64,000 nucleotides of DNA, taken from an uncultured Bacteroidota bacterium. Its GTDB lineage: Bacteria; Bacteroidota; Bacteroidia; Bacteroidales; GCA-2748055. The DNA lies in contig CAKZNC010000102.1 in assembly GCA_937129385.1 (NCBI GenBank), positions 1 through 64,000 on the forward strand, given 5' to 3'. A program made the translations under genes and the position numbers. Positions 28,815 through 46,268 of this stretch are shown here, piece by piece. The notes under the pieces are model-generated. The model searched no databases, was not told the DNA's origin, and worked only from the letters and a program-made list of their open reading frames with translations. Numbering within the stretch: position 1 is the stretch's first letter; each line of letters opens with the position of its first letter.

Positions 28815-29372
28815 TCAACTGGCGGCCAGCCTGGCCTCCTTCACGATCTCCATACCCCTGTGAATGGCCTGCTCATTGGCAGGAATAAGGTGGTGATGCC
28901 TTTCAGGAAGTGAGCTTTTGAGACCTTTGATCACATTTTCAACATCCACTACGGGGTTAATCTTCAGGTAAGCTCCCAGGACGATCATGTTGAAAGTTTT
29001 CGTTGAGGACATTTTTGCAGCCTCTGCTGCAGCTTCAATTTTAAAGACCCTGATGTCGTCACGCTCCGGATGCCGGGTAATACCATTGGGGTCATACAAT
29101 AAAAGTCCTCCCGGCTTTACTGCCTCTTCAAATTTATCAAGTGACTGCTGGTTCAGGATGATCGCAGTATCATAACTATGCAGTACTGGAGAACTTACCC
29201 TTTCATCGCTAAGGATTACGGTGACGTTTGCTGTTCCACCCCTCATTTCGGGCCCGTATGATGGCATCCAGCTTACCTCCTGCTCCTGCATTATTCCTGA
29301 ATAGGCAAGGATCTTACCCATTGAAAGTACGCCCTGTCCGCCGAAACCAGCAATAATTATTTCTTCAGTCAT
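28815..29372 (-). CDS. korC: 2-oxoacid:ferredoxin oxidoreductase, gamma subunit
   Basis: EIIIAGFGGQGVLSMGKILAYSGIMQ...MRGGTANVTVI. Confidence 0.88.
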   Translation of the reverse strand: MTEEIIIAGFGGQGVLSMGKILAYSGIMQEQEVSWMPSYGPEMRGGTANVTVILSDERVSSPVLHSYDTAIILNQQSLDKFEEAVKPGGLLLYDPNGITRHPERDDIRVFKIEAAAEAAKMSSTKTFNMIVLGAYLKINPVVDVENVIKGLKSSLPERHHHLIPANEQAIHRGMEIVKEARLAAS

Positions 29373-29399
29373 AATATTCGTTTTAGTCTGGGATTCAAT

Positions 29400-30197
29400 T
29401 TAAACCAGGTCCTTCATCAGGTCTTTTACGATTTTACCATCAACCTTCATGTCGCCCAAAGGGTAAGATGGAAACATATGCTCCTCCATCCATACATTGG
29501 ATTCATTGGGACTCATTTTCCAACCCGAATTACAGTTGGATACGATCTCAATAAAGGACATGCCCTTTTTCTCCCTCTGAACTTCGAACGCCTTGCGGAT
29601 GGCCTTTTTGGTCTTCCTGACATTCCCTGGCTTATGGACTGCCTGGCGGGTTACAAAATTTGTTCCCGGAAGCTGCGCAACAAGTTCGGTGATCTTCAAT
29701 GGATGTCCCATCGACTGCAAATCACGACCATAGGGCGAGGTTGATGATTTCATCCCTTCCAGCGTAGTGGGAGCCATCTGGCCACCTGTCATACCATAGA
29801 TCCCGTTGTTGATAAAGATGATAGTAATGTCCTCACCCCTGTTACAGGCATGGATAGTTTCTGCTGTGCCAATGGCAGCAAGGTCGCCATCTCCCTGGTA
29901 AGTAAAAACAAATTTATCTGGCCATAGCCTTTTGATCCCGGTAGCAACTGCTGGTGCCCTGCCATGTGCTGCCTGGGACATGTCAATGTCCATAAAGTCA
30001 TATGCCAGAACAGAACAACCTACCGGCGCTATTCCGATGGTTTGCTCCTGTATTTCCATCTCTTCCACAACCTCCATGACCAGGTGATGCACGGTTCCGT
30101 GACCACAACCCGGACAATACGAGAGTGTTGCATCGGTCATAAGAGAGGTGCGTTGATGCACCAGGTTTTCCGGTTTGATTATCTCTTTGATATCCAT
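29400..30197 (-). CDS. korB: 2-oxoacid:ferredoxin oxidoreductase, beta (TPP) subunit
   Basis: YCPGCGHGTVHHLVMEV, TYQGDGDLAAIGTAE...NNGIYGMTGGQMAPTT. Confidence 0.9.
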   Translation of the reverse strand: MDIKEIIKPENLVHQRTSLMTDATLSYCPGCGHGTVHHLVMEVVEEMEIQEQTIGIAPVGCSVLAYDFMDIDMSQAAHGRAPAVATGIKRLWPDKFVFTYQGDGDLAAIGTAETIHACNRGEDITIIFINNGIYGMTGGQMAPTTLEGMKSSTSPYGRDLQSMGHPLKITELVAQLPGTNFVTRQAVHKPGNVRKTKKAIRKAFEVQREKKGMSFIEIVSNCNSGWKMSPNESNVWMEEHMFPSYPLGDMKVDGKIVKDLMKDLV

Positions 30198-31267
30198 TAG
30201 TATCCTCCCATTAATTTTTCATCAATTGCTTTTAAGACATCATCGGGTGAAAAGATCTTGCCACCCGGAGTCCCATAGTGATAGACCGGAACCCTGCCGT
30301 TAACTGCCAGCATGACATCTTCCACCATCTGACCCGTATTAAGTTCTACGGAAAGGATGCCCTTTACCTGCCTGGCCAACTTTGAGATGATTGCATCAGG
30401 AAATGGAAAAAGGGTAATGGGTCGCAGGAGTCCCAGCTTCTTGCCCCGGCTTCTTGCCTCATCTACTGCTTTCTGACAAATCCGTGAGCTTGATCCATAG
30501 GCCACAAGCAAAAACTCAGCATCTTCACAATCAAATGTTTCATACATCACATCGTCCGACATGCTGTCGTACTTTTCCTTCAGTCTCATATTATGCTGGT
30601 ACTGTTTATCTGGATCCAGGTTCAGAGAGGTGATGATATTCCGTTCCCGGTCTTTCGTCTTTCCTGTGATCACCCAGCTCTGGTCAAATTCCTTCACCCG
30701 CTCCTTCTGATCGGGCAATTCTACCTTCTCCATCATCTGGCCGATCAAACCATCAGAAAGGATCATCACCGGATTCCTGTATTTAAATGCCAGCTCCATT
30801 CCTTTGTCCACAAAATCTGCCATTTCCTGCACCGAAGCGGGTGCCAGCACTACCAACCTGTAATCGCCATGTCCGCCACCTTTGGTGGCCTGGAAATAAT
30901 CGGCCTGGGAAGGCTGTATTGTTCCGAGCCCAGGTCCACCTCTTACAACATTCAGTATAAGGCATGGCAGTTCGGCTCCGGCAATGTAGCTGATCCCTTC
31001 CATTTTCAGACTGATACCCGGACTGGAGGAGGAGGTCATCACCTTTTTCCCCGTTCCTGCAGCTCCATATACCATATTGATTGCAGCAATCTCACTTTCT
31101 GCCTGGAGTACGACCATTCCGGTACGTTCCTCGGGTTTTTGCAGCATCAGGTATTCCAGCACTTCAGACTGGGGTGTGATCGGATATCCGAAATATGCAT
31201 CCACACCTGCTCGAATAGCAGCCTCCGCAACCGCTTCATTGCCTTTCATTAATCGAAGTTCTCCCAT
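30197..31267 (-). CDS. korA: 2-oxoacid:ferredoxin oxidoreductase, alpha subunit (VorB/KorA type)
   Basis: KGNEAVAEAAIRAGVDAYFGYPITPQSEVLEYL; GPGLGTIQPSQADYFQATKGGGHGDYR. Confidence 0.9.
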   Translation of the reverse strand: MGELRLMKGNEAVAEAAIRAGVDAYFGYPITPQSEVLEYLMLQKPEERTGMVVLQAESEIAAINMVYGAAGTGKKVMTSSSSPGISLKMEGISYIAGAELPCLILNVVRGGPGLGTIQPSQADYFQATKGGGHGDYRLVVLAPASVQEMADFVDKGMELAFKYRNPVMILSDGLIGQMMEKVELPDQKERVKEFDQSWVITGKTKDRERNIITSLNLDPDKQYQHNMRLKEKYDSMSDDVMYETFDCEDAEFLLVAYGSSSRICQKAVDEARSRGKKLGLLRPITLFPFPDAIISKLARQVKGILSVELNTGQMVEDVMLAVNGRVPVYHYGTPGGKIFSPDDVLKAIDEKLMGGY

Positions 31268-31280
31268 ATCTGTGTGTTTT

Positions 31281-31505
31281 TTAAGCTTTTACCCTGTATA
31301 CAGTTATCACACCATCCGGACAAACAATTGAACAATTCGCACACCCCGTGCAAGTCTCCGGTTTTTCCATGTAAGCATAATGATATCCCTTCCCATTCAC
31401 CTCGCTGGCCATTGCAATGGTATCGGCCGGACAGTTCACCATGCAGACTTCGCAACCTTTGCAGCGTTCATTGTCAACAACGATTGCTCCTCTCATTTTT
31501 CCCAT
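31281..31505 (-). CDS. 4Fe-4S dicluster ferredoxin subunit
   Basis: CKGCEVCMVNCP and CTGCANCSIVCP. Confidence 0.9.
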   Translation of the reverse strand: MGKMRGAIVVDNERCKGCEVCMVNCPADTIAMASEVNGKGYHYAYMEKPETCTGCANCSIVCPDGVITVYRVKA

Positions 31506-31693
31506 AATTCAGGTATATTAAATTTTTCAGTCTCAATATATAATGTCCCGTTCCCTTGTTCTTAAGCTCAATATTCAGTACCTCTCAAAACCACATCGAC
31601 AAAGTATGGAGTTCCCGGCGATATTAAAAAAAAGTTATCCCCGTATGAATTCTTTTGTCCCAAATCCCCCCTATTTAGAAGGATTATTTATAG

Positions 31694-33010
31694 TCATGCA
31701 GGATGATCTTCAGAAAAACACTTTAACCTGTATTCCAGGTCATCAAACTGTTCTCTCCTCACTTGTGACACGCATGCGCGAACCCCTTCAGGATAGGCGC
31801 TGCCCGTAATGTTCAGTGCAATCGCACTGATCCCGTAATACAGCATCTCCTCCACCAACTGTGTACCGTCAAATCCAGGGTAGGCAAGTGTAAAATAAAA
31901 TCCGTCTGCAATCGGTTCATCAATGTCCGTTTCATAGACAATCCGAAATCCGTACCTGGTGAAAAGCTCCTTCATGATCCTGGCTTTTTTGCCATATTCA
32001 CTGACCACCTCGATAAAATTATATTCACCGTCATTGGCAGCCTTTAACATCGCCGCAAGCGCATACTGCGGCGTGTGGGCGGCTCCGGCAGATAAGGCAT
32101 ATAAAGCCCCGTAGATCATTGCATGGCTGAACTTATCTGAATTGTAATATCTTTTCAAATCCGGAAATCTCCTGTTGTACAGTTCTGACGAAACAACCAT
32201 CATTCCGATCCTTTGCCCTGCATAACTGAATGCCTTTGAACTTGAGATCAGCATCAGCCAGTTGTCGGTATACCTCGCAGCTGTCGCCTGGTAAGGTGGC
32301 TTCCCTGGGGTTGACATATCTTTTCTGAAATCCATCCCGAAATAGGCGAGGTCTTCGATGACCGTTACATCATATTTCCTGGATATCTTGCCAATGATCT
32401 CCAGTTCCTGCTCTGTGAGACAAATCCATGAAGGGTTGTTCGGATTTGAATACAATAGCGAGGAGTATCTGCCCATGTTGATCTCCTCCTCAAGTTTTGC
32501 TTCAAGCTTGTCACCCCTGTAATCGTAAAGGTCAAATGAACCAAATGAATGTCCCAGCACCAGGCATTGCTGTTTCTGAACCGGGAATCCAGGATCAAGG
32601 AATAGTGTTCCTGTCCTGTAATGATCCGAACGGTTGACCACCATGAAAGAGGCCATGCCTCCCATCATCGATCCCACGGTAGGGATGCAACATTCTGGCG
32701 GTACATCAATATCCATGAACAGTTTCACGAACCTTGAGACCTCATTTTTCAATGTAGGAATCCCTTCAATATTCGGATATCTGGAGGCCACACCAGATTT
32801 GAGGGCTTTTATCTCGGCTTCTACACCCACTTCAGCAGGCTCAAGTCCGGGAACTCCCATCTCCATCCTGATGAATTCATTTCCGGTCTCCTCCTGTATA
32901 TCATTGACTATTTTTACAATCTCTCGGATCGTTCCGCGACCGACCGGGTGAATGCCAAAATCATTGATGACTTTGCTGACAATATCAGAATTAATTGGGG
33001 TCTTCCTCAT
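31694..33010 (-). CDS. class I/II PLP-dependent aminotransferase
   Basis: YSNPNNPSWICLTEQEL, SSSKAFSYAGQRIG. Confidence 0.88.
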   Translation of the reverse strand: MRKTPINSDIVSKVINDFGIHPVGRGTIREIVKIVNDIQEETGNEFIRMEMGVPGLEPAEVGVEAEIKALKSGVASRYPNIEGIPTLKNEVSRFVKLFMDIDVPPECCIPTVGSMMGGMASFMVVNRSDHYRTGTLFLDPGFPVQKQQCLVLGHSFGSFDLYDYRGDKLEAKLEEEINMGRYSSLLYSNPNNPSWICLTEQELEIIGKISRKYDVTVIEDLAYFGMDFRKDMSTPGKPPYQATAARYTDNWLMLISSSKAFSYAGQRIGMMVVSSELYNRRFPDLKRYYNSDKFSHAMIYGALYALSAGAAHTPQYALAAMLKAANDGEYNFIEVVSEYGKKARIMKELFTRYGFRIVYETDIDEPIADGFYFTLAYPGFDGTQLVEEMLYYGISAIALNITGSAYPEGVRACVSQVRREQFDDLEYRLKCFSEDHPA

Positions 33011-33126
33011 TCCTTCTTTTTTGCACCGTGAAAATAAAAATTGATAACAAAACCAGGGGTGCCGTTTAACATATTACCTATGTGTTCTTGAACTTATCAT
33101 CCCTCAGAATAATCAATATCACCTGT

Positions 33127-35190
33127 TTATGAGTCCAGGCCGACTCTGACCCTTGCATCAACAACTGTCAAACCATCCTTTCCTGCGATCAGGGGATTCA
33201 TATCCAGTTCTCTGATCTCAGGTGTATACCTGAGAACTGTGGAGAGCCTGACAATGATTTCAGCAAACTTTTCTGTATCTACACCTTGCTGCCCCCTGGT
33301 TCCTTTAAGTAATTCGTATGACCGCAACTTTTCAATCATGCTATTTGCTTCCGGAAAGGTCAATGGAGCGAGGCCGGAACTGATATCCTTCAGGGTCTCA
33401 ACGAAGATTCCACCCAGACCACACATGACCACATGTCCGTATTTCTCCTCATACACAGCCCCGATAAACAATTCAGTTCCACTAAGCATCGGTTGTAGAA
33501 GCACACCCTCAAATCCTTCAATATGTCTCATCTCATCAAAGGCTCTCTCCACCTCGACCAGGCTTTCCAGCCCAAGCACCACCCCACCTACATCAGTCTT
33601 GTGAAGCGGTCCGACCACCTTCATCACGAGGGGATACCCCAGATCGTCTGCTATCTTTTCGAGTGCATCCGGATCATTTACAACAGCTTCTTTGACAGCA
33701 GGGATTCCCGCATGTAGAAACAGCTCCTTCACATCTGCGGGAGTCATGTATCCATCACCAGACCGGTCAATCAATGTCCGAATGGATTTAATGTCAATTC
33801 CGTCCATGAAAATGCTCTCCCCGGCCGGCTTCGGAGTCTGGCTGATATTTACCAGTGCCCTGCCAAGAATGACTTCATCGGAAAAATTCAGGTGGCCATA
33901 GGACAAAAATTGCTCAATTTCAGAAGCCGCCGTTGTTACAGAAGGTAACACGGGATAAACAGGTTTCCTGCTCTTGCACATATGCTTATGAACCTCCTCA
34001 TATACATCATATACAGGTGCCAGGCCGGGAGTTCCAAAAATCAGGATCACCCCGTCAATCTTTTCAAACCTGTTTTCACAGTATTCCAGGCTGAGCCGGA
34101 CATGTTCAGCTGTACCGGTGGCAAGAATATCGATGGGGTTTGCCACGGATGAACCCGGGAAGAGATTTTCAAGCAGATCGTCAGCATCTTCCCCCGAAAG
34201 TTTTGGGACATCCAGCTGGCCCTCGGCCAGCGCATCGGTGAGCATTACCGCTGGTCCGCCTGCATGGGTGATGATAGCATAATTTTTTTCCGGCAACTCC
34301 GGGTAGAGAAGGATGCCGGCCACCGTTGCCAGCTCTTCCCTTCCAAAGCACCTGATGATTCCTGCCTTCCTGAACAGAGCATCCACAGCCTGGTCGGAAC
34401 TTGCCATGGCGCCAGTATGCGATGAAGCAGCCCGTGATCCTGCTTCTGAAGTCCCCGCTTTAATGGCTGCAATCCTGCAACCCTTCCTGATCAGGCTGGA
34501 GGCATGTTTCAGCAACTTATCGGGATTCCCAATGGATTCAAAATAGAGGATCTTTACCCTGGAGCTGATGCCATCCTCATAGGTATTGTCCATATATTCA
34601 AGGACATCCTCTACGCCGTTCTGTGCTGAATTACCAACTGAAAAAACACTGTTGAATTTCAATCCCTTCTGCAATCCCGCTTCCATGATAAACACCGCAG
34701 TGGCACCACTTCCTGAAATAAAATCACATCCTGCCCTGTCCAGCTTTGGTATAGGAAGGGTGAATACCCCCTGGTATCCCGGGGTCATCACACCAATACA
34801 ATTAGGTCCGATCAGGGAGGCTTCATAGCTGTTACATATCTCCGTAATCCTTCTTTCGATATCTGCCCCCTCCTGGTCTTCCTCACTGAAACCTGCAGAA
34901 ATGATCACAAAAGCCCTGGTAGATTTCTTTGATGCCAGGTAATCAACTGTCTCAACACAGAACTTCGCTGGAATCGCCAGGATTGCCATTTCTGAATCGG
35001 GTAATTCAGATAACTCCCTGAAGCAACTGTCATCCTGGATCTTGTCCTCCTTAGGATTCATTGGATAAAGTTTACCCGTGAATGTCCCGGATTTGAGGTT
35101 ATGGTAGATCTTGCCCCCTGGTTTGGAAATGTTATTGGAAGCACCAACAATCGCAATGCTCTTCGGATCAATAAGTTGACGTGTAATCAT
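33127..35190 (-). CDS. ADP-forming acetate/acyl-CoA synthetase (fused alpha-beta, NDP-forming)
   Basis: SIAIVGASNNISKPGGKIYHNL, SGSGATAVFIMEAGLQKG, C-terminal ATP-grasp YPLVMKVVGPLHKTDVGGVVLGL. Confidence 0.92.
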   Translation of the reverse strand: MITRQLIDPKSIAIVGASNNISKPGGKIYHNLKSGTFTGKLYPMNPKEDKIQDDSCFRELSELPDSEMAILAIPAKFCVETVDYLASKKSTRAFVIISAGFSEEDQEGADIERRITEICNSYEASLIGPNCIGVMTPGYQGVFTLPIPKLDRAGCDFISGSGATAVFIMEAGLQKGLKFNSVFSVGNSAQNGVEDVLEYMDNTYEDGISSRVKILYFESIGNPDKLLKHASSLIRKGCRIAAIKAGTSEAGSRAASSHTGAMASSDQAVDALFRKAGIIRCFGREELATVAGILLYPELPEKNYAIITHAGGPAVMLTDALAEGQLDVPKLSGEDADDLLENLFPGSSVANPIDILATGTAEHVRLSLEYCENRFEKIDGVILIFGTPGLAPVYDVYEEVHKHMCKSRKPVYPVLPSVTTAASEIEQFLSYGHLNFSDEVILGRALVNISQTPKPAGESIFMDGIDIKSIRTLIDRSGDGYMTPADVKELFLHAGIPAVKEAVVNDPDALEKIADDLGYPLVMKVVGPLHKTDVGGVVLGLESLVEVERAFDEMRHIEGFEGVLLQPMLSGTELFIGAVYEEKYGHVVMCGLGGIFVETLKDISSGLAPLTFPEANSMIEKLRSYELLKGTRGQQGVDTEKFAEIIVRLSTVLRYTPEIRELDMNPLIAGKDGLTVVDARVRVGLDS

Positions 35191-37673: not shown

Positions 37674-38309
37674 TCAGGCAGTATTAACAGCCTTATTGGT
37701 TTTGACAAAATAGGCAACTTTCTCGAGTGAAGTGATCATATCATACTCATCGATATATACCTCAGGGGAGACATTCAACGGTACAGTTGTAAAGTTCAAC
37801 AACCCCCTCACCCCTGCAAGGTAAAGGTTTTCAGCAATTTCCCTCGCCTGGTCGGCTGGAACAGTAATGACAGCAATGGAGATGTTTTTCTGACTGATGA
37901 TCTCCTGCATCTGGTTGATAGCATAACACTTTACTCCAGAGATCACCCTGTCAACCTTGTTTGGATCCACATCAAAGGCAGCCACAATGTTCAGTTTGGA
38001 ACGCTTGCCCATAAAGTAGGCAGTGATTGCCCTGCCCAGATTACCGATCCCAACAACCGCAACATTTAAGCCGGTCTCACTGTCCAGGATGTTCCCGATT
38101 ACATCGATCAGCTCCTTGACATCGTAGCCTTTCCGCTGCATGCTGCTGTAACCGATAAACATGATGTCACGACGAACCTGCACAGCAGTATTATGGTGCA
38201 TCTGGGCCAACTCATGAGAATAAATATGTGTCTTGCCTTCTGCAAGACAGTTCAGCAAGGATCGCCTGTATTCACTGATACGCTCTACTGTTCTTTCGGG
38301 TAATTTCAT
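37674..38309 (-). CDS. rex: redox-sensing transcriptional repressor Rex
   Basis: LPERTVERISEYRRSL...HNTAVQVRRDIMFIGY HTH; VAVVGIGNLGRAITAY Rossmann motif. Start adjusted to the internal ATG. Confidence 0.92.
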   Translation of the reverse strand: MKLPERTVERISEYRRSLLNCLAEGKTHIYSHELAQMHHNTAVQVRRDIMFIGYSSMQRKGYDVKELIDVIGNILDSETGLNVAVVGIGNLGRAITAYFMGKRSKLNIVAAFDVDPNKVDRVISGVKCYAINQMQEIISQKNISIAVITVPADQAREIAENLYLAGVRGLLNFTTVPLNVSPEVYIDEYDMITSLEKVAYFVKTNKAVNTA

Positions 38310-38424
38310 ATATCCTGTTTTATTAATACCTGCTTCAGGCAATGCCTGTCATTGATTCAAATTCAGATATCAAAATATGTGCATAAGTTGATATGCAAAA
38401 ATGCAAATTCTGCGTAAATAAATA

Positions 38425-38509: not shown

Positions 38510-40231
38510 CTATTTCAGCACCTTTTTGTGCTCAAAACTGGCAAGGAATAATTCTCTGCTTTCATCTGAACCCGGTGATCTTGCCAGCTCCTCATAGATT
38601 TTTAATGCCGCCTTATTCTTATGGGCAGATTTCACGGATTCATTCTTATCCATCTCATAAATATTCCTTGTCCTGGCTTTGACGGCAGGCTGAGACGGGG
38701 GTATGGGCTGACCGCCCCCGTTGATGCAACCATCCTTGCAGACCATTACTTCAATCATATCATAATGTCTCTTCCCCGATACAACTTCATCCAGGAGTGA
38801 CAGTGCACTTTTCAGACCACTTACAGCAGCCACCCTGATCTCACCTTTCTGGCTGGGAATTGTTACTTCCTTAACGTCACGATGACCACGAAGTTTGGAT
38901 AAACGCGCGTCCTGGAGCTCCTTCTTATTCATCTCCCTGTATACGGTCCTGAGAGTTGCCTCTGCTTCACCTCCACATGTTGCAAGCAACTTACCTGCGG
39001 AACTGACTGCATGGAAAGGTCCGTCTGCAGGTTCTGGTTCGAGCTCCTGGAAATCAATTCCATTAAGCCGGATCAGTCTTGCCATTTCCCTGGTGGTCAG
39101 CACAAAATCAACATCCTGTGTGTGATCAGTATAATAATCCGGACGTGTTGCTTCCTGTTTGGCTGCAGTACAATTTGTGATCAAAACGGAGTGAATCCGA
39201 TGCTTCTTTGTTTTGAGCTTTGATGTGAACCATGTCTTGATCAGTTTCCCTGTGATCTGGTGGGGAGATCTGACCGGGACAAGGTTGGACATCAGTTCCG
39301 GCCTGAACGCTTCAACATAATTGACCCAGGCAGCACATCTGGATGTAATCATCGGAATTTTTTCTGACCGCTTTAGCCTGGTTGCCAATTCTGCAGCCTG
39401 TTCCATTACATAGACATCGCCCCCGCAGGAGGTCTCGAAAATATAGTCAAAACCGATCTTACGAAGCGCACTATTTAAAATACCTTTTAGCTCAGTCCCG
39501 GGTCTGAAACCGAATTCCTCTGCAATGGAAACCACCACCTCCGGCGTATACTGAATTGCAACAATGATCTCCGGATCATCAAGGGATGTATCTATTTCCT
39601 GGAATTGAGTATGATCAATAAGGGCTCCGGTCGGGCAGGAAATGACACACATTCCGCATTCAATACAACTTGAAAATGCCAGTGGTTCTGACAATGCTGT
39701 GGCAATACGCAACTGCTCTCCTCTTCTTTCAAAGTCAAATGCAGCCACGCCGACAATCTCTTCACAAACCCGCACACATCTCCCGCAAAGAATGCATTTT
39801 GCAGGATCCCGCACAATTCCCTTGCTGGAGGTATCAAGCTTGAAATTGCATTTCTGTCCCTGTATGGTTCTGTTCCTTACATTCAAGTCCTCAGAAAGCT
39901 TCTGAAGTTCACAGTTTCCATTCCTTTCACAATACAGGCAATCATCCGGATGGTTGGAAAGGAGCAATTCAACATTTGTCTTCCTTGCATTCAGTACACG
40001 CGCCGAGTGTGTCCTGATCTTCATCCATTCCTCTACCCTGAAAGAACAGGCAGGGACCAGGTTATCATAACCTTCCACCTCGACGACACACATCCTGCAT
40101 GCTCCGGTTGGGGACAGCTCACTCATACTACAAAGGGTCGGAACTTTGATCCCATTGTTCTTCAGCGCCGAAAGGATGGTCTCCCCTCTCTCAACACTGA
40201 TCATCTTTTTATTTACCTCAATCTTGATCAT
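38510..40231 (-). CDS. [FeFe]-hydrogenase-like subunit A (HydA/HndD architecture), atypical active-site surroundings
   Basis: N-terminal [2Fe-2S], His-ligated cluster (HPDDCLYCERNGNC) and 2x[4Fe-4S]; L1 ITSRCAAW, L2 ITNCTAAKQEA, L3 EVMVCKDGCINGGGQP. Confidence 0.92.
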   Translation of the reverse strand: MIKIEVNKKMISVERGETILSALKNNGIKVPTLCSMSELSPTGACRMCVVEVEGYDNLVPACSFRVEEWMKIRTHSARVLNARKTNVELLLSNHPDDCLYCERNGNCELQKLSEDLNVRNRTIQGQKCNFKLDTSSKGIVRDPAKCILCGRCVRVCEEIVGVAAFDFERRGEQLRIATALSEPLAFSSCIECGMCVISCPTGALIDHTQFQEIDTSLDDPEIIVAIQYTPEVVVSIAEEFGFRPGTELKGILNSALRKIGFDYIFETSCGGDVYVMEQAAELATRLKRSEKIPMITSRCAAWVNYVEAFRPELMSNLVPVRSPHQITGKLIKTWFTSKLKTKKHRIHSVLITNCTAAKQEATRPDYYTDHTQDVDFVLTTREMARLIRLNGIDFQELEPEPADGPFHAVSSAGKLLATCGGEAEATLRTVYREMNKKELQDARLSKLRGHRDVKEVTIPSQKGEIRVAAVSGLKSALSLLDEVVSGKRHYDMIEVMVCKDGCINGGGQPIPPSQPAVKARTRNIYEMDKNESVKSAHKNKAALKIYEELARSPGSDESRELFLASFEHKKVLK

Positions 40232-40245
40232 AGCTGTCTGAATGG

Positions 40246-42195
40246 TCAATTGTAGAATACTGCGCTGAATTTACATACCTCCCTGCATATACCACATCCG
40301 GTACATTTGTCCGATACAATAAAAAATGGGTGTCGTTCTGTACCAATGATCGCCTCCTCCGGACATCTTTTTGCGCAAATTGCACATCCCGTACAGAGCT
40401 CAACATCAATATAGTAAGTGCGTAATTCCCTGCAAACATTCGGCTTGCAATGACGGTCAAAAATATGCGCTTCAAACTCCTCCCTGAAATTGCGCAGACT
40501 GCTGATCAGTGGATTGGGCGCAAGCTGACCCAGGCCACAGAGCGAGGTGTCGCGCATCACATCCGCAAGTTTTTCCAATTGTATCAGCCCCCTGAACTTC
40601 TCGAGCGTATCATGCTGATCCTGGTCGGCCGGCTTACGGGTGATCTCATCCAGCAATTCAGACATTCGCTTGGTTCCCTCCCTGCATGGAATGCATTTTC
40701 CGCAACTCTGGTGTTTCATGAATCCCATGAAGTATTTTACCAGATCAACAATACACGTTTTTTCATCAAGCACCAGGATACCTCCGGCACCCAGTACAGC
40801 TCCTTCCCGCCTGAATGTCTCGTAGCAGACAGGAACATTCAGTTTGCCTGCCGGAATGATGCAGCCATAAGGCCCCCCGATATGCACTGCCTTTAGCGTC
40901 CGGTTATCGCTTGCTCCGCCAATGATCTCGTCAACAAGGAATTCGAGGCTTGTCCCCATGGGTATCTCGATAAGACCTTTGTGCCTGGCCCGTCCGCTGA
41001 CAGAAAATATCTTTGTTCCCGGACAATCCTTGGTGCCAATGGACCTGAACCAATCCGGACCGTTCATGACGATGTGTGGAATATTTGAAAGCGTCTCTAC
41101 ATTATTGATCACCGTTGGCTTTTTGTGAAAGCCCCGTTCGGCCGGATAGGGTGGTTTGGATTGCGGCATCCCTCGTTTCCCCTCCATACTGGCAATAAGT
41201 GCTGTCTCCTCTCCACACACAAATGCACCCGGTCCTTTCCTGATCATGATGTCAAGATTAAAACCACTGAAGAAGATATTGTGCCCCAGCAAACCATATG
41301 CCCGCGCCTGATCGATGGCTGCATTTAGTTTTCGAATGGAATCCCTGTATTCAGACCTGATATAGATGAAAGCCCGTGAAGCTCCAATCGCATAAGCAGC
41401 GGTACAGATTCCCTCGATCAATTGGTGTGGATTTCCTTCCATCAACGCACGGTCCATAAATGCCCCTGGATCACTCTCTTCAGCATTACATACCAGGTAT
41501 TTCTGTTCTGCAGGAGTCTGTTGCGCCACCATCCATTTTTTCCCGGTGTTGTATCCACTGCCTGATCTTCCCCGGAGCCCGCTCTCTTCAACCATGACAC
41601 AGATCTCCTCGAAGGTATGCATCCTGATCGCCTTCAGAAATGCTCCATATCCTCCGTTGGCAATATACTCATCGATCGAAAGTGGATTGATGATGCCATT
41701 GTGCCTGAGCAATACGCGCTGCTGTTTGCCAAAAAAGGGAAGTTCATCAAGAAAAGGAATATCCTGCCAGGCATCAAGCTCATCATTTCGAAGCTGACCA
41801 AGCAGTTTTTCCCGGGGAATTGTTTGGTGAAAAATATCGTCAAGCAAAAGGGGTATCTCATCTGCAACCAGGTTCGTATAGAAAATCCTGGTCCTTCCCG
41901 GGAGCTGGATGCTTATTATCGGCTCTTCTGATCCCAGTCCGATTGCACCCGTTTCACCAATCTCCGCATCAATCTCCCGATCATTCAGGTAGGTGTGCAA
42001 TGCCTCATAGATACTGTCGGCACCAGCGATCCGGCCTGATGTATTCATCCCCAGGAGTATCAGCGGCCTCGTCAGTGTATACCTGCGGTTTTCAGTCAGG
42101 GTATCCTGCATCTCCGGGGTAAGTGATTCATCCAACTGCTCTGCAAGTACAGGCAGTAACTCCTTCATCGATATTTTTTCCTTGTTTTCAGACAT
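40246..42195 (-). CDS. NuoF/HydB-like NADH-binding subunit with C-terminal 2x[4Fe-4S]
   Basis: GLRGRSGSGYNTGKKW, GAFVCGEETALIASMEG, SCGKCIPCREGT, CTGCAICAKRCP, CTGCGICREVC. N-terminal thioredoxin-like domain lacks cysteines. Confidence 0.93.
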   Translation of the reverse strand: MSENKEKISMKELLPVLAEQLDESLTPEMQDTLTENRRYTLTRPLILLGMNTSGRIAGADSIYEALHTYLNDREIDAEIGETGAIGLGSEEPIISIQLPGRTRIFYTNLVADEIPLLLDDIFHQTIPREKLLGQLRNDELDAWQDIPFLDELPFFGKQQRVLLRHNGIINPLSIDEYIANGGYGAFLKAIRMHTFEEICVMVEESGLRGRSGSGYNTGKKWMVAQQTPAEQKYLVCNAEESDPGAFMDRALMEGNPHQLIEGICTAAYAIGASRAFIYIRSEYRDSIRKLNAAIDQARAYGLLGHNIFFSGFNLDIMIRKGPGAFVCGEETALIASMEGKRGMPQSKPPYPAERGFHKKPTVINNVETLSNIPHIVMNGPDWFRSIGTKDCPGTKIFSVSGRARHKGLIEIPMGTSLEFLVDEIIGGASDNRTLKAVHIGGPYGCIIPAGKLNVPVCYETFRREGAVLGAGGILVLDEKTCIVDLVKYFMGFMKHQSCGKCIPCREGTKRMSELLDEITRKPADQDQHDTLEKFRGLIQLEKLADVMRDTSLCGLGQLAPNPLISSLRNFREEFEAHIFDRHCKPNVCRELRTYYIDVELCTGCAICAKRCPEEAIIGTERHPFFIVSDKCTGCGICREVCKFSAVFYN

Positions 42196-42206: not shown

Positions 42207-42671
42207 CTACTGATGCATGGATCGGATCTCATCCAGCAACTTCTTTACCCTGTTCGATTTGAACTTCGGATAATACTCATCATTGACAGCGATCACAGGT
42301 GACTGTCCACACGCTCCAATACAAGCCACGATCTCCAGGCTTACCATGCCATCCCTGGTGGTTTCCCCGTCACCGATCCCAAGCTGCTTTTTAAACTCCT
42401 TGCGTATGGATTCAGAATGATCAATATGACAGGCTGAACCATTGCATATACGAATATGGTATTTACCCCGCGGACTGAATGTGAACTGGTTGTAAAAAGT
42501 CGCAAGTCCGTATATCTTGCTGGCAGGCAGATTCAGTTGTGCACCAATCTCTTCAAGTGCCTCTTCAGTAAGATATCCGTATTCGTCCTGGATGGCCTGG
42601 AGTACCGGAATGAGGGAATCCCGGTTTACCTGCTGGAAATGCTGCAGAATATCTTCTATGCGCTGTTTCAT
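42207..42671 (-). CDS. NuoE/HydC-like [2Fe-2S] subunit
   Basis: ICNGSACH...CIGACGQSP ligand pattern; IYGLATFYNQF. Confidence 0.93.
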   Translation of the reverse strand: MKQRIEDILQHFQQVNRDSLIPVLQAIQDEYGYLTEEALEEIGAQLNLPASKIYGLATFYNQFTFSPRGKYHIRICNGSACHIDHSESIRKEFKKQLGIGDGETTRDGMVSLEIVACIGACGQSPVIAVNDEYYPKFKSNRVKKLLDEIRSMHQ

Positions 42672-42968: not shown

Positions 42969-43217
42969 GTGAAAGAGAAGGTAATTATTCAGATATGCAT
43001 GGGAAGTTCCTGTTTCAGCAGGGGCAATAATAAAACCCTGGAAGTCATCCGGCATTACCTTGATGAACATCAGCTTTCAGGGGATGTGGTCCTGAAGGGA
43101 AATCACTGTTTCGGAGATTGCAGCAAGGGACCGGTAGTTAAGATCAACGATCACATTCACGAGGAGATTGACCGTGAAAATATTCTCGAACTGCTGCAGA
43201 AGACGTTTAATACGTAA
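42969..43217 (+). CDS. standalone [2Fe-2S] thioredoxin-like ferredoxin
   Basis: ICMGSSCFSRGN...HCFGDCSKGPVVKIND: CxxxxC...CxxxC ligand pattern; GTG start. Confidence 0.85.
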   Translation: MKEKVIIQICMGSSCFSRGNNKTLEVIRHYLDEHQLSGDVVLKGNHCFGDCSKGPVVKINDHIHEEIDRENILELLQKTFNT

Positions 43218-43226
43218 GATACCCCT

Positions 43227-45071
43227 ATGGAGCCATTGCTAAAGATAAACAGGGAAAAATGCACCGCCTGCTATGCGTGTGTAAGGTCATGTCCTGTCAA
43301 GGCGATCAAAGTCGAACCCGACCGGCCAAAGCCGATCATCATTCCTGAGCGCTGCATCGGATGTGGCAACTGTCATGCTGTCTGTTTCGACAACGCCGTT
43401 GATATCCGCAACAGTAAAGACGAGCTCAAGAAGTTGTTAAAAGGAGAAACACCTGTGGCTGCTCTTGTTGACCCTTCGATCGCAGGAGAATTCCCGGATA
43501 TTACGGATTACCGAAAATTTGTCAGCATGATCCGCAAACTGGGATTCAAGTATGTACAGGAGGTGGCATTTGGGGTTGAACTTGTCGCACAGCAGTATAA
43601 GGAACTCATAAGCAAAAGTAAAGGAAAATACTACCTGTTCGCCAACTGTCCGATCTCCGTTATGTATGTTGAAAAATACAAGCCGGAACTGATCAAAAAC
43701 CTGGCACCGATCGTGCCACCTGTTATTGCTACAGCACGTGTTGCGCGGAAACTCTACGGGAACGATATCCGCCTGGCCTATATATCACCCCTGATTGCAA
43801 GTAAAGAAGAGGCCGTGCGACTTTCCGGCGAAGAAAGAATTGATACTGTCCTCACTTTCCTTGAGCTCAGAGAACTCTTCAGCGAATCAGGAATCGATGA
43901 AAAAAACCTGGAATACAGTGAATTTAACGATCCCATCGGATACAAAGGATCCCTCTTCCCCTTGTCAAGCGGAATACTTGAAGCAGCCGACATTGACCAG
44001 CGTGTTCTCACCTCAAAGGTCATAACTGTAGAAGGTGACCTTATATTTGACAGCATCAGGGAGTTCGAAGAAGAGATTACGACGATCAAATCTCATTTTA
44101 ATATCTTCTACAAAGAGTTTATCATGGGGAGAGGCACCTCTCCCGGAGCCAGGAAATGGCTCCGGCGAAGTCAGCTGATCAAATACCTGAACAGGCGTGC
44201 AGGAAATTTTGATGAGAAGTCACACCAGGCAGCACTGTCAGCTTATGATGATATCAAGCTTGAAAGGGGGTTTGTGAATGATGATCAGCGACTTCCTGCA
44301 CCCCCGAAAGATAAAGTTGAGAAGATACAGGCTGAATTGCAAAAGCATGAAGAAAATGAAAGAGGATGCGGTGCATGTGGATATAAATCATGCCACGAAT
44401 TTGCCACTGCAATTGCCCAGGGACTCGCTGTTCCGGAGATGTGCAACTTCTACGCCACAAGCAATACCCTGGACCACATTCAGTCACTTAAAATCAGTAA
44501 TGAAAAACTGGCACAGGCACAGGCTGCCCTGAAGGCTTCAGAAAAAATTGCAAGACAGGAAAAAGAATCTTCGATGGAGGCTTCTGAAATAACCAGGACC
44601 ATGCTGCAAAAGCTTCCATCCGGGGTCGTGATCCTGGATAAATCACTTAAAATTATACAAGCCAATGAAAGCTTCATTGAACTGCTTGGCGAAGAGGCAC
44701 TTGAGATCAATGAGGTAATACCGGGATTAACAGGCGCAGATCTGAAGACATTACTCCCCTATCCGGTTCATAACCTGTTTACCTATGTACTCGCCAACAA
44801 TGAAAATATTACTGACCGGGACATCACACTAGTTGGTAAACAGTTCAGCATCTCTGTTTTCGTCATCAGGAAAGAAAAAATCGTCGGCGCAGTCATCCGC
44901 GACCTATCTGCTCCAGAAGTGCAAAAAGAAGAGATTGTCAAACGCCTTACCGATGTGGTCGATAAAAACCTGAGCCTGGTGCAACAGATCGGGTTTATCC
45001 TTGGCGAAGGGGCTTCGGAATCTGAGCGAATGCTGAACTCGATAATAGAATCCTACAAGCCAAAAAATTAG
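43227..45071 (+). CDS. [FeFe]-hydrogenase-like sensory protein (2x[4Fe-4S] + Fe_hyd_lg_C-like + FeS domain + PAS) with degenerate H-cluster motifs
   Basis: CTACYACVRSCP, CIGCGNCHAVC; LFANCPISVMYVEKYKPEL; GCGACGYKSCHEFATAIAQG; PAS-like VVILDKSLKIIQANESFIELLG. Confidence 0.88.
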   Translation: MEPLLKINREKCTACYACVRSCPVKAIKVEPDRPKPIIIPERCIGCGNCHAVCFDNAVDIRNSKDELKKLLKGETPVAALVDPSIAGEFPDITDYRKFVSMIRKLGFKYVQEVAFGVELVAQQYKELISKSKGKYYLFANCPISVMYVEKYKPELIKNLAPIVPPVIATARVARKLYGNDIRLAYISPLIASKEEAVRLSGEERIDTVLTFLELRELFSESGIDEKNLEYSEFNDPIGYKGSLFPLSSGILEAADIDQRVLTSKVITVEGDLIFDSIREFEEEITTIKSHFNIFYKEFIMGRGTSPGARKWLRRSQLIKYLNRRAGNFDEKSHQAALSAYDDIKLERGFVNDDQRLPAPPKDKVEKIQAELQKHEENERGCGACGYKSCHEFATAIAQGLAVPEMCNFYATSNTLDHIQSLKISNEKLAQAQAALKASEKIARQEKESSMEASEITRTMLQKLPSGVVILDKSLKIIQANESFIELLGEEALEINEVIPGLTGADLKTLLPYPVHNLFTYVLANNENITDRDITLVGKQFSISVFVIRKEKIVGAVIRDLSAPEVQKEEIVKRLTDVVDKNLSLVQQIGFILGEGASESERMLNSIIESYKPKN

Positions 45072-45083
45072 GCTGGACAAAGC

Positions 45084-46268
45084 ATGAACAGCGATTTTTA
45101 CATAGAGGTGATTTCTGAGCAAAGAAATTATGGTGAGGAACGGATTTGCGGGGATGTATTCCTGTCGCGTAAAATCAGGGAGGAAAACCGCACAATCGCA
45201 GTCCTGTCCGATGGAATGGGGCACGGTGTAAAAGCCAATGTACTTGCTACATTAACAGCCACTATGTCGGTCAATTTCACAATTGAACACAAACATCCTG
45301 AAACCATCGCAGATATCATCATGAATACACTGCCGGTATGCAGTGAGCGGCACATGAGCTATTCAACATTTACCATTGTGGATATCGAAGCCGATGGAAA
45401 AATCAATATACTGGAATATGACAACCCACAGACCATCATTATCCGAAACCTGAGACTGTTTGATCCGGGATGGCAGCAGACGGTGTTGCATACGGCAAAA
45501 AATGAAGGCAAGGAGATCAGGACCTGTCAGTTCAAACCCCTGAAGGAGGACAGGATCCTTATATTCTCGGATGGCATTACCCAGAGTGGATTGGGTACAG
45601 AAAAATTCCCGCTTGGATGGGGGCACGACCAACTTGCATCCTATGCTGAAAAGCTCGTCAGGAACACCCCCAGCCTGTCAGCTGCCAAACTTGCCGAAAA
45701 AATTGTCAATATGGCTTACCGTAACGACAATTATAGTTCAAAGGATGATACCAGCTGTGCAAGTATCTATTTCCGTGAACCCAGGAAATTACTCATCTCC
45801 ACCGGCCCTCCATATGAAAAAGAAAATGACAAGAAACTTGTCAGCGCAGTTAAGGAATTCAAAGGCAAGAAGATCATTTGTGGTGCAACCACCGCCGACA
45901 TCATCGCCAGGGGCCTGGATGTCACTATTGAAGACAGCCTTGAATTCTCAGATCCCGACCTTCCCCCGGTTTCTGTCATGCCCGGCATAGACCTGGTGAC
46001 CGAAGGAATTCTTACGCTGACAAAAGTTACCAGGATACTGAAAGAATACACCCCGGGTTACGACCTGGGCAATGGTCCGGCCGACAGGATCATAAAAATG
46101 GTGAAGGAGAGTGATGAGATCGAGATCATTATCGGCACACGTATCAATATCGCACACCAGGACCCAAATCTCCCGGTCGACCTCGAAATCCGCCGCACTG
46201 TGGCAAAAAGGATGTCCAGGCTGCTGGAAGAAAAATTCCTCAAAGAGGTCTCAATAAGGTATATTTAG
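45084..46268 (+). CDS. SpoIIE-like PP2C serine phosphatase with uncharacterised C-terminal domain
   Basis: IAVLSDGMGHGVKANVLATLT, STFTIVDIEADGKINILEYDNP, RILIFSDGITQSGLG. Confidence 0.85.
   Translation: MNSDFYIEVISEQRNYGEERICGDVFLSRKIREENRTIAVLSDGMGHGVKANVLATLTATMSVNFTIEHKHPETIADIIMNTLPVCSERHMSYSTFTIVDIEADGKINILEYDNPQTIIIRNLRLFDPGWQQTVLHTAKNEGKEIRTCQFKPLKEDRILIFSDGITQSGLGTEKFPLGWGHDQLASYAEKLVRNTPSLSAAKLAEKIVNMAYRNDNYSSKDDTSCASIYFREPRKLLISTGPPYEKENDKKLVSAVKEFKGKKIICGATTADIIARGLDVTIEDSLEFSDPDLPPVSVMPGIDLVTEGILTLTKVTRILKEYTPGYDLGNGPADRIIKMVKESDEIEIIIGTRINIAHQDPNLPVDLEIRRTVAKRMSRLLEEKFLKEVSIRYI

Follow-up and report, generated by a model that had tools for sequence, protein, structure and literature searches.

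The closest described systems to the locus considered here are the electron-bifurcating HydABC complexes (group A3 [FeFe]-hydrogenases; FeFe-Bfu), for which structures have been solved from Thermoanaerobacter kivui (8a6t), Acetobacterium woodii (7q4v), and Thermotoga maritima (7p5h). Non-H2 complexes of the Bfu class (Nfn/Stn-, Fdh-, Por-, and Wor-Bfu) combine a HydBC-like NADH/ferredoxin core with a non-H2 HydA-like subunit, and have other catalytic domains or added subunits (PMC9304861). Two further kinds of protein share features with HydA. Sensory HydS proteins (groups C and D) tolerate the loss of C299 and M353 (PMC10055695, PMC8163306), but in them the residues holding the diiron site are conserved (PMC10055695); they remain reactive with H2 and carry PAS or kinase domains. 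Motif-poor sensors are already known, since a study of Hydrogenedentota includes group C1 proteins in which H-cluster motifs are hardly findable (PMC11406978); no report of a HydABC HydA in such a state was found in the open papers searched. The eukaryotic Nar1/NARF proteins keep the cysteine site for [4Fe-4S]H but contain no diiron site in vivo (PMC12621388). They are single proteins of cytosolic Fe-S assembly, outside any NADH complex.

H-domain residues are numbered here as in CpI. In CpI structures K358 holds the diiron site; mutational data on this residue were not found in open papers. Residues lining the diiron cavity of CpI include V423 and F417 (PMC5954619). The activity of CpI falls below 1% with E279Q and likewise with C299A/S, but stays at 30–80% with C299D (PMC6226526).

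The window (the whole 64,000 nt stretch of DNA analyzed) encodes the same three subunits as HydABC, with the same domain order and cluster chain (Table 1). By fold and context, this complex is of HydABC/Bfu descent. The hydA-like frame starts at an ATG at 40231 or alternatively at a TTG at 40249, giving 573–579 amino acids with no internal stops. Its product scores 248 bits against Pfam PF02906 and resembles 8a6t_A along its entire length (phmmer E 1.8e-141; Foldseek 39% identity, E 3.6e-57), and an AlphaFold model (mean pLDDT 79.8) confirms the fold.

Table 1. Features of the HydABC-like locus and its surroundings, with positions in the window.
Feature	Position	Strand	Remarks
2-oxoacid:ferredoxin oxidoreductase (alpha, beta, gamma), aminotransferase, ADP-forming acyl-CoA synthetase	28815..35190	-	
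Rex redox-sensing repressor	37674..38342	-	downstream of hydA
HydA-like subunit (BfuA)	38510..40231	-	N-terminal [2Fe-2S] and three [4Fe-4S] sites; H-domain with four cubane cysteines, diiron pocket dismantled
HydA L3 motif EVMVCKDGCINGGGQP	38705..38752	-	C499 and C503 kept; CPGGC -> CKDGC
HydA Glu428 codon (CpI V423E)	38966..38968	-	Glu in 20/20 of K358-lacking family clade
HydA L2 motif ITNCTAAKQEA	39149..39181	-	M353T, P354N, C355 kept, K358A
HydA L1 motif TSRCAAW	39326..39346	-	C299R, C300 kept
HydB-like subunit	40246..42195	-	FMN/NADH domain, NADH_4Fe-4S site, five-ligand site (C481/T/H577/C583/C588), C-terminal 2x[4Fe-4S]
HydB N-terminal [2Fe-2S] region (B5 of Bfu scheme, our reading)	41932..42039	-	all cysteines lost
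HydC-like subunit, thioredoxin-like [2Fe-2S]	42207..42671	-	all four cysteines kept
Rex-like operator (predicted) TTGTTACACTAATAACAA	42778..42795	+	between divergent hydC and [2Fe-2S]/HydS genes
Small thioredoxin-like [2Fe-2S] protein	42969..43217	+	divergent from hydC
HydS-type PAS protein	43227..45071	+	C355, C499, C503 ligands lost; N-terminal Fer4 and C-terminal FeS sites kept
SpoIIE-type phosphatase, paired with HydS-PAS gene	45084..46268	+	

Alignment of the window HydA to CpI and the three solved HydA proteins gives E279Q, C299R, S319V, Q325H, M353T, and K358A, with all four [4Fe-4S]H ligands (C300, C355, C499, C503) retained. An earlier note on this sequence, which had aligned it to CpI by eye, listed exactly these changes and cysteines, and the arginine codon it placed at L1 is indeed AGA at 39338–39340 on the minus strand. 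There are further changes at P301A, G302A, P354N, F417L, and V423E; E282 and R286 are retained, as are M497 and K359. L3 had been called canonical, which is right as to both cysteines but not as to the sequence between them. The N-terminal FeS ligands are intact as claimed: all 15 accessory cysteines are present, and all 15 are also found in 20/20 members of the K358-lacking clade of the window's family. Misplaced gaps, which the note had named as a possible flaw, are excluded as the cause of the motif changes, since several alignments agree and none has unusual gaps near the motifs. Sequencing or assembly error is likewise excluded by the same changes in several independent genomes. The note had proposed looking for the R299/A358/V319 combination in a clade; R299 does recur, with A or S at 358, in three more genomes of the genus, but family-wide position 299 is R or S.

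In place of the diiron-site residues of L1 and L2 (TSCCPxW, MPCxxKKxEA), the window HydA thus has TSRCAAW and TNCTAAKQEA. Its score against TIGR02512, the NCBIfam model for group A [FeFe]-hydrogenases, is 372.8 bits, below the curated cut-off of 405.95. Because the diiron motifs are missing and the score is below this cut-off, it is not filed as a hydrogenase. Among relatives, five without K358 score 346–392 bits and two intact ones 492–507; three that belong to the eroding clade but keep K358 straddle the cut-off, at 403–460.

Sampling of 393 genomes of the order yielded a HydA orthologue (~41–70% identity) in 119. A tree of 180 distinct HydA sequences, most of them from Bacteroidales, was built after removing the trait columns from the alignment; it rests on a simple model and on incomplete MAGs, with SH-aLRT as the only branch support. 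Ninety-seven of the 180 form an eroding clade (SH-aLRT 98), in which C300, C355, C499, C503, K359, and E361 are invariant (97/97). Other H-domain residues are retained there to very different extents: E279 in 5, C299 in 46, M353 in 53, K358 in 61, F417 in 26, and V423 in 19 of the 97, counts which are not independent because the members share ancestry. The other 81 relatives keep all six of these residues (81/81), and their [4Fe-4S]H cysteines are invariant except for a serine at position 300 in 18. HydAs with this serine at a cubane ligand position (L1 motif TSCSPGW; L001 and many of L089–L149) are common outside Bacteroidales, and include A. woodii HydA1.

By parsimony, this tree requires at least six losses of K358, counting as lost any residue other than K or R. 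The largest of these losses comprises 20 distinct sequences, nearly all of the window's family, nested within the well-supported eroding clade (SH-aLRT 98–99). In all 20, K358, M353, and P354 are lost together and position 423 is Glu, which is never found in the 81 intact relatives and arises independently in a few eroding ones. Two members of the family (G007 and G011) branch just outside this clade and retain MPCTAKK. Five lineages of the order (L181, L225, L232, L239, L254) show separate H-domain erosion of their own: four have G, M, or A in place of K358, and L181 retains K358 but has Glu423. A first tree had suggested a single loss of E279; this was not upheld in the larger one, which has four changes.

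The headline of the earlier note was the dismantling of the proton-transfer pathway. That loss is real, but it is older than the window gene and more widespread, and it is not decisive by itself, because many relatives with K358 in place show variation at E279 and C299 and because C299D is active in CpI. Loss of the proton path alone was therefore rejected as a sign of lost function. The telling part is instead the set K358, M353, P354, F417, and V423. As far as residues can demonstrate it, the diiron pocket has been lost, and the ligands for the cubane and for the accessory clusters of HydA have been kept.

The NADH, FMN, and ferredoxin-side centers of HydB and HydC are for the most part retained. 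The HydB five-ligand [2Fe-2S]/Zn site has its ligands, including the Thr found in other FeFe enzymes and the His that is a mark of bifurcating enzymes (PMC9304861). The N-terminal [2Fe-2S] cysteines of HydB are replaced, not only in the window but in each of the 14 family HydBs examined that belong to K358-lacking loci, and likewise in several eroding relatives that keep K358. We read this cluster as B5 of the published scheme, where B5 is conserved in all bifurcating family members (PMC9304861); it is not B2, which in that scheme is the five-ligand site, kept here. Because B5 is lost, the coupling to ferredoxin may itself be altered. The closest HydB structure is NfnB (9n5u).

Surrounding genes were compared for loci of at least 11 kb: 53 intact, 47 eroding with K or R at 358, and 15 lacking K358. 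Intact operons run hydC-B-A, HydS-kinase, two response regulators, and often hydG-F-E, with hydG in 21 of 53. Eroding operons with K/R358 have in addition a divergent HydS-PAS/SpoIIE pair, rex, and ribF, with hydG in 13 of 47; the ribF-like gene (riboflavin kinase/FAD synthetase) is found in 30 of these 47 vs. one of the 53 intact. None of hydE, hydF, or hydG was found near the 15 K358-lacking loci. In the window's genus the HydS-kinase (an H2-sensor kinase) and both response regulators are absent; wherever the kinase was examined, it keeps all the H-cluster residues in question. The HydS-PAS protein follows a different course: nearly all outgroup loci have K358 and the four cysteines, those of the eroding clade lack K358 and keep most of the cysteines, and those of the window's family lack the equivalents of C355, C499, and C503 throughout. 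The only protein of HydS type in the window is of this last kind.

Upstream of hydC is a candidate Rex operator, a Rex-like palindrome with zero mismatches. Such sites precede 15 of 67 hydC copies, with about one expected, and the one in the window is clear. An ADP-forming acyl-CoA synthetase is joined to 11 of the 15 K358-lacking loci, all 11 in the window's family, and 10 of them have an aminotransferase as well; a 2-oxoacid:ferredoxin oxidoreductase is visible in four. None of the other 100 loci has this linkage, a synteny for which family history alone may account. The window's oxidoreductase genes (28815–31267) encode alpha, beta, and gamma subunits; an adjoining ferredoxin-like delta gene is absent.

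A search of the whole genome, as the earlier note had proposed, turned up two further HydAs, whose L2 and L3 are canonical and whose L1 reads TSCCPGW or TSCSPGW, as well as hydG, hydE, and hydF on other contigs. Delivery of the diiron cofactor to the window HydA is therefore possible, since the genome still makes it for other hydrogenases. Among genomes at least 90% complete, a further HydA accompanies an eroding one in 47 of 47 and an intact one in 21 of 39 (Fisher p = 4e-8, a value inflated by relatedness), leaving 18 of the 39 with no other HydA. This pattern fits another enzyme having taken over the H2 work, freeing HydA of the window type. Strong hydG matches were absent from three K358-lacking genomes (G012, G014, G016); these genomes have further HydA genes, which makes missing contigs a likelier explanation than true absence.

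Loss of H2 chemistry in the window's complex is well supported by these comparisons, and the earlier suggestion, that the subunit is unlikely to be an ordinary H2 enzyme and might bind the [4Fe-4S] part alone, has gained from them: the cubane site is frozen and the diiron pocket varies, with K358, M353, and P354 lost together. The lack of adjacent hydEFG, the loss of ligands in the neighboring sensor, and the further HydA in every eroding genome at least 90% complete point the same way. With moderate confidence, we favor the reading that this HydABC (Bfu)-type NADH/ferredoxin complex no longer carries out H2 chemistry, and that its H-domain houses a [4Fe-4S] cluster but no diiron site. The domain would most likely bind a single [4Fe-4S] on C300, C355, C499, and C503, with the diiron subsite neither held nor used. 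Electrons could pass among NAD(H), ferredoxin, and the cubane of the H-domain, because HydB and HydC keep their NADH, FMN, and ferredoxin-side centers and HydA its full cluster chain. The main role would be that of a ferredoxin:NAD(+) oxidoreductase, probably disposing under Rex control of reduced ferredoxin from amino-acid (2-oxoacid) oxidation by the neighboring genes, and the H-domain cubane may serve as an outlet to a protein partner. A point against it is that HydBC might suffice for a ferredoxin:NAD oxidoreductase, in which case the strict conservation of HydA needs another reason.

Compared with group A3 HydABC, then, the window complex has lost the residues of the diiron pocket and proton path and the HydB N-terminal [2Fe-2S] cysteines, and unlike the non-H2 Bfu complexes it retains an H-domain, with an altered pocket and with no added module seen. 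It would behave as a Bfu core with some third substrate. The window HydA is like Nar1 in that, of the H-cluster, the cubane site alone is kept. The loss of the diiron site in Nar1/NARF is taken as independent of that in the window HydA; membership in that family was discounted solely from the operon and subunit context.

That HydA is in use, with electron transfer as the conserved property, follows from purifying selection and from the accessory cysteines kept in 20/20 of the family clade. Pairwise dN/dS is 0.05–0.2 among K358-lacking HydAs, frames are intact, and the HydA cluster ligands are conserved in 100% of 20 distinct sequences, which excludes a pseudogene or simple decay and makes a functionless complex heading for loss, already disfavored, highly improbable, even though in the same pairs change is more rapid in the H-domain than in the N-terminal half and linked regulators have been deleted. 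A functioning complex might instead be concerned mainly with redox signaling, reading the NADH/ferredoxin state and passing cubane electrons to HydS-PAS, which would control the SpoIIE phosphatase, with metabolism secondary. HydS-PAS has lost its own H-cluster ligands and would therefore need another input; it keeps its N- and C-terminal Fe-S sites and PAS domain, the pair is linked in 13 of 15 K358-lacking loci, and Rex and its putative operator lie in the same locus. The same two genes accompany relatives that keep K358, however, so that the linkage is inherited, and a sensor that included whole NADH and ferredoxin modules would be a large one; we consider this unlikely.

Little credence is also given to a low-turnover or sensory-type hydrogenase that would still bind the diiron subsite and work slowly by another proton route, as in groups C and D. 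Those enzymes bind it without C299 and M353 (PMC10055695, PMC8163306), and in the present case maturation genes are in the genome and M497 and K359 are kept. The hydrogen-bonding residues that hold the diiron site are, however, conserved in the sensory enzymes (PMC10055695), whereas the family clade combines the loss of both K358 and P354 with a changed V423. E279Q alone, moreover, nearly abolishes activity in CpI (PMC6226526), there is always another HydA in the genome, and the H2-sensing partners are lost or disarmed. An emptied pocket might also have become a new active site, in which the invariant Glu423, and in the genus Arg299, would bind another substrate or cofactor for redox chemistry at the cubane. 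The distribution of Glu423 and the fact that the third substrate differs among published Bfu enzymes (PMC9304861) are in favor of this, but position 299 varies within the family, few other gained residues are invariant, no candidate substrate presents itself, and most of the changes are explicable by relaxed evolution, so that it seems improbable. Returning to the favored complex without H2 chemistry, a broader version of it is tentative and rather doubtful: Bacteroidales may repeatedly have made hydrogen-free HydABC complexes, with a lone [4Fe-4S] in the H-domain and the vacated pocket serving a new substrate or partner, and so have formed a Bfu class that reaches its third substrate by way of a repurposed H-domain.

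Metagenomic hydA gene counts are an unsafe proxy for H2 producers in this Bacteroidales lineage, of whose 180 sampled orthologues 97 belong to the eroding clade. What the family provides is a natural, stepwise set of [FeFe]-hydrogenase site losses within one operon family: the proton path is the most widely eroded, the diiron pocket is lost in fewer lineages, with matching sensors alongside, and the [4Fe-4S] site never is. With such a series it can be asked which residues are really needed to hold the diiron cofactor, and whether a HydABC core is able to function without H2.
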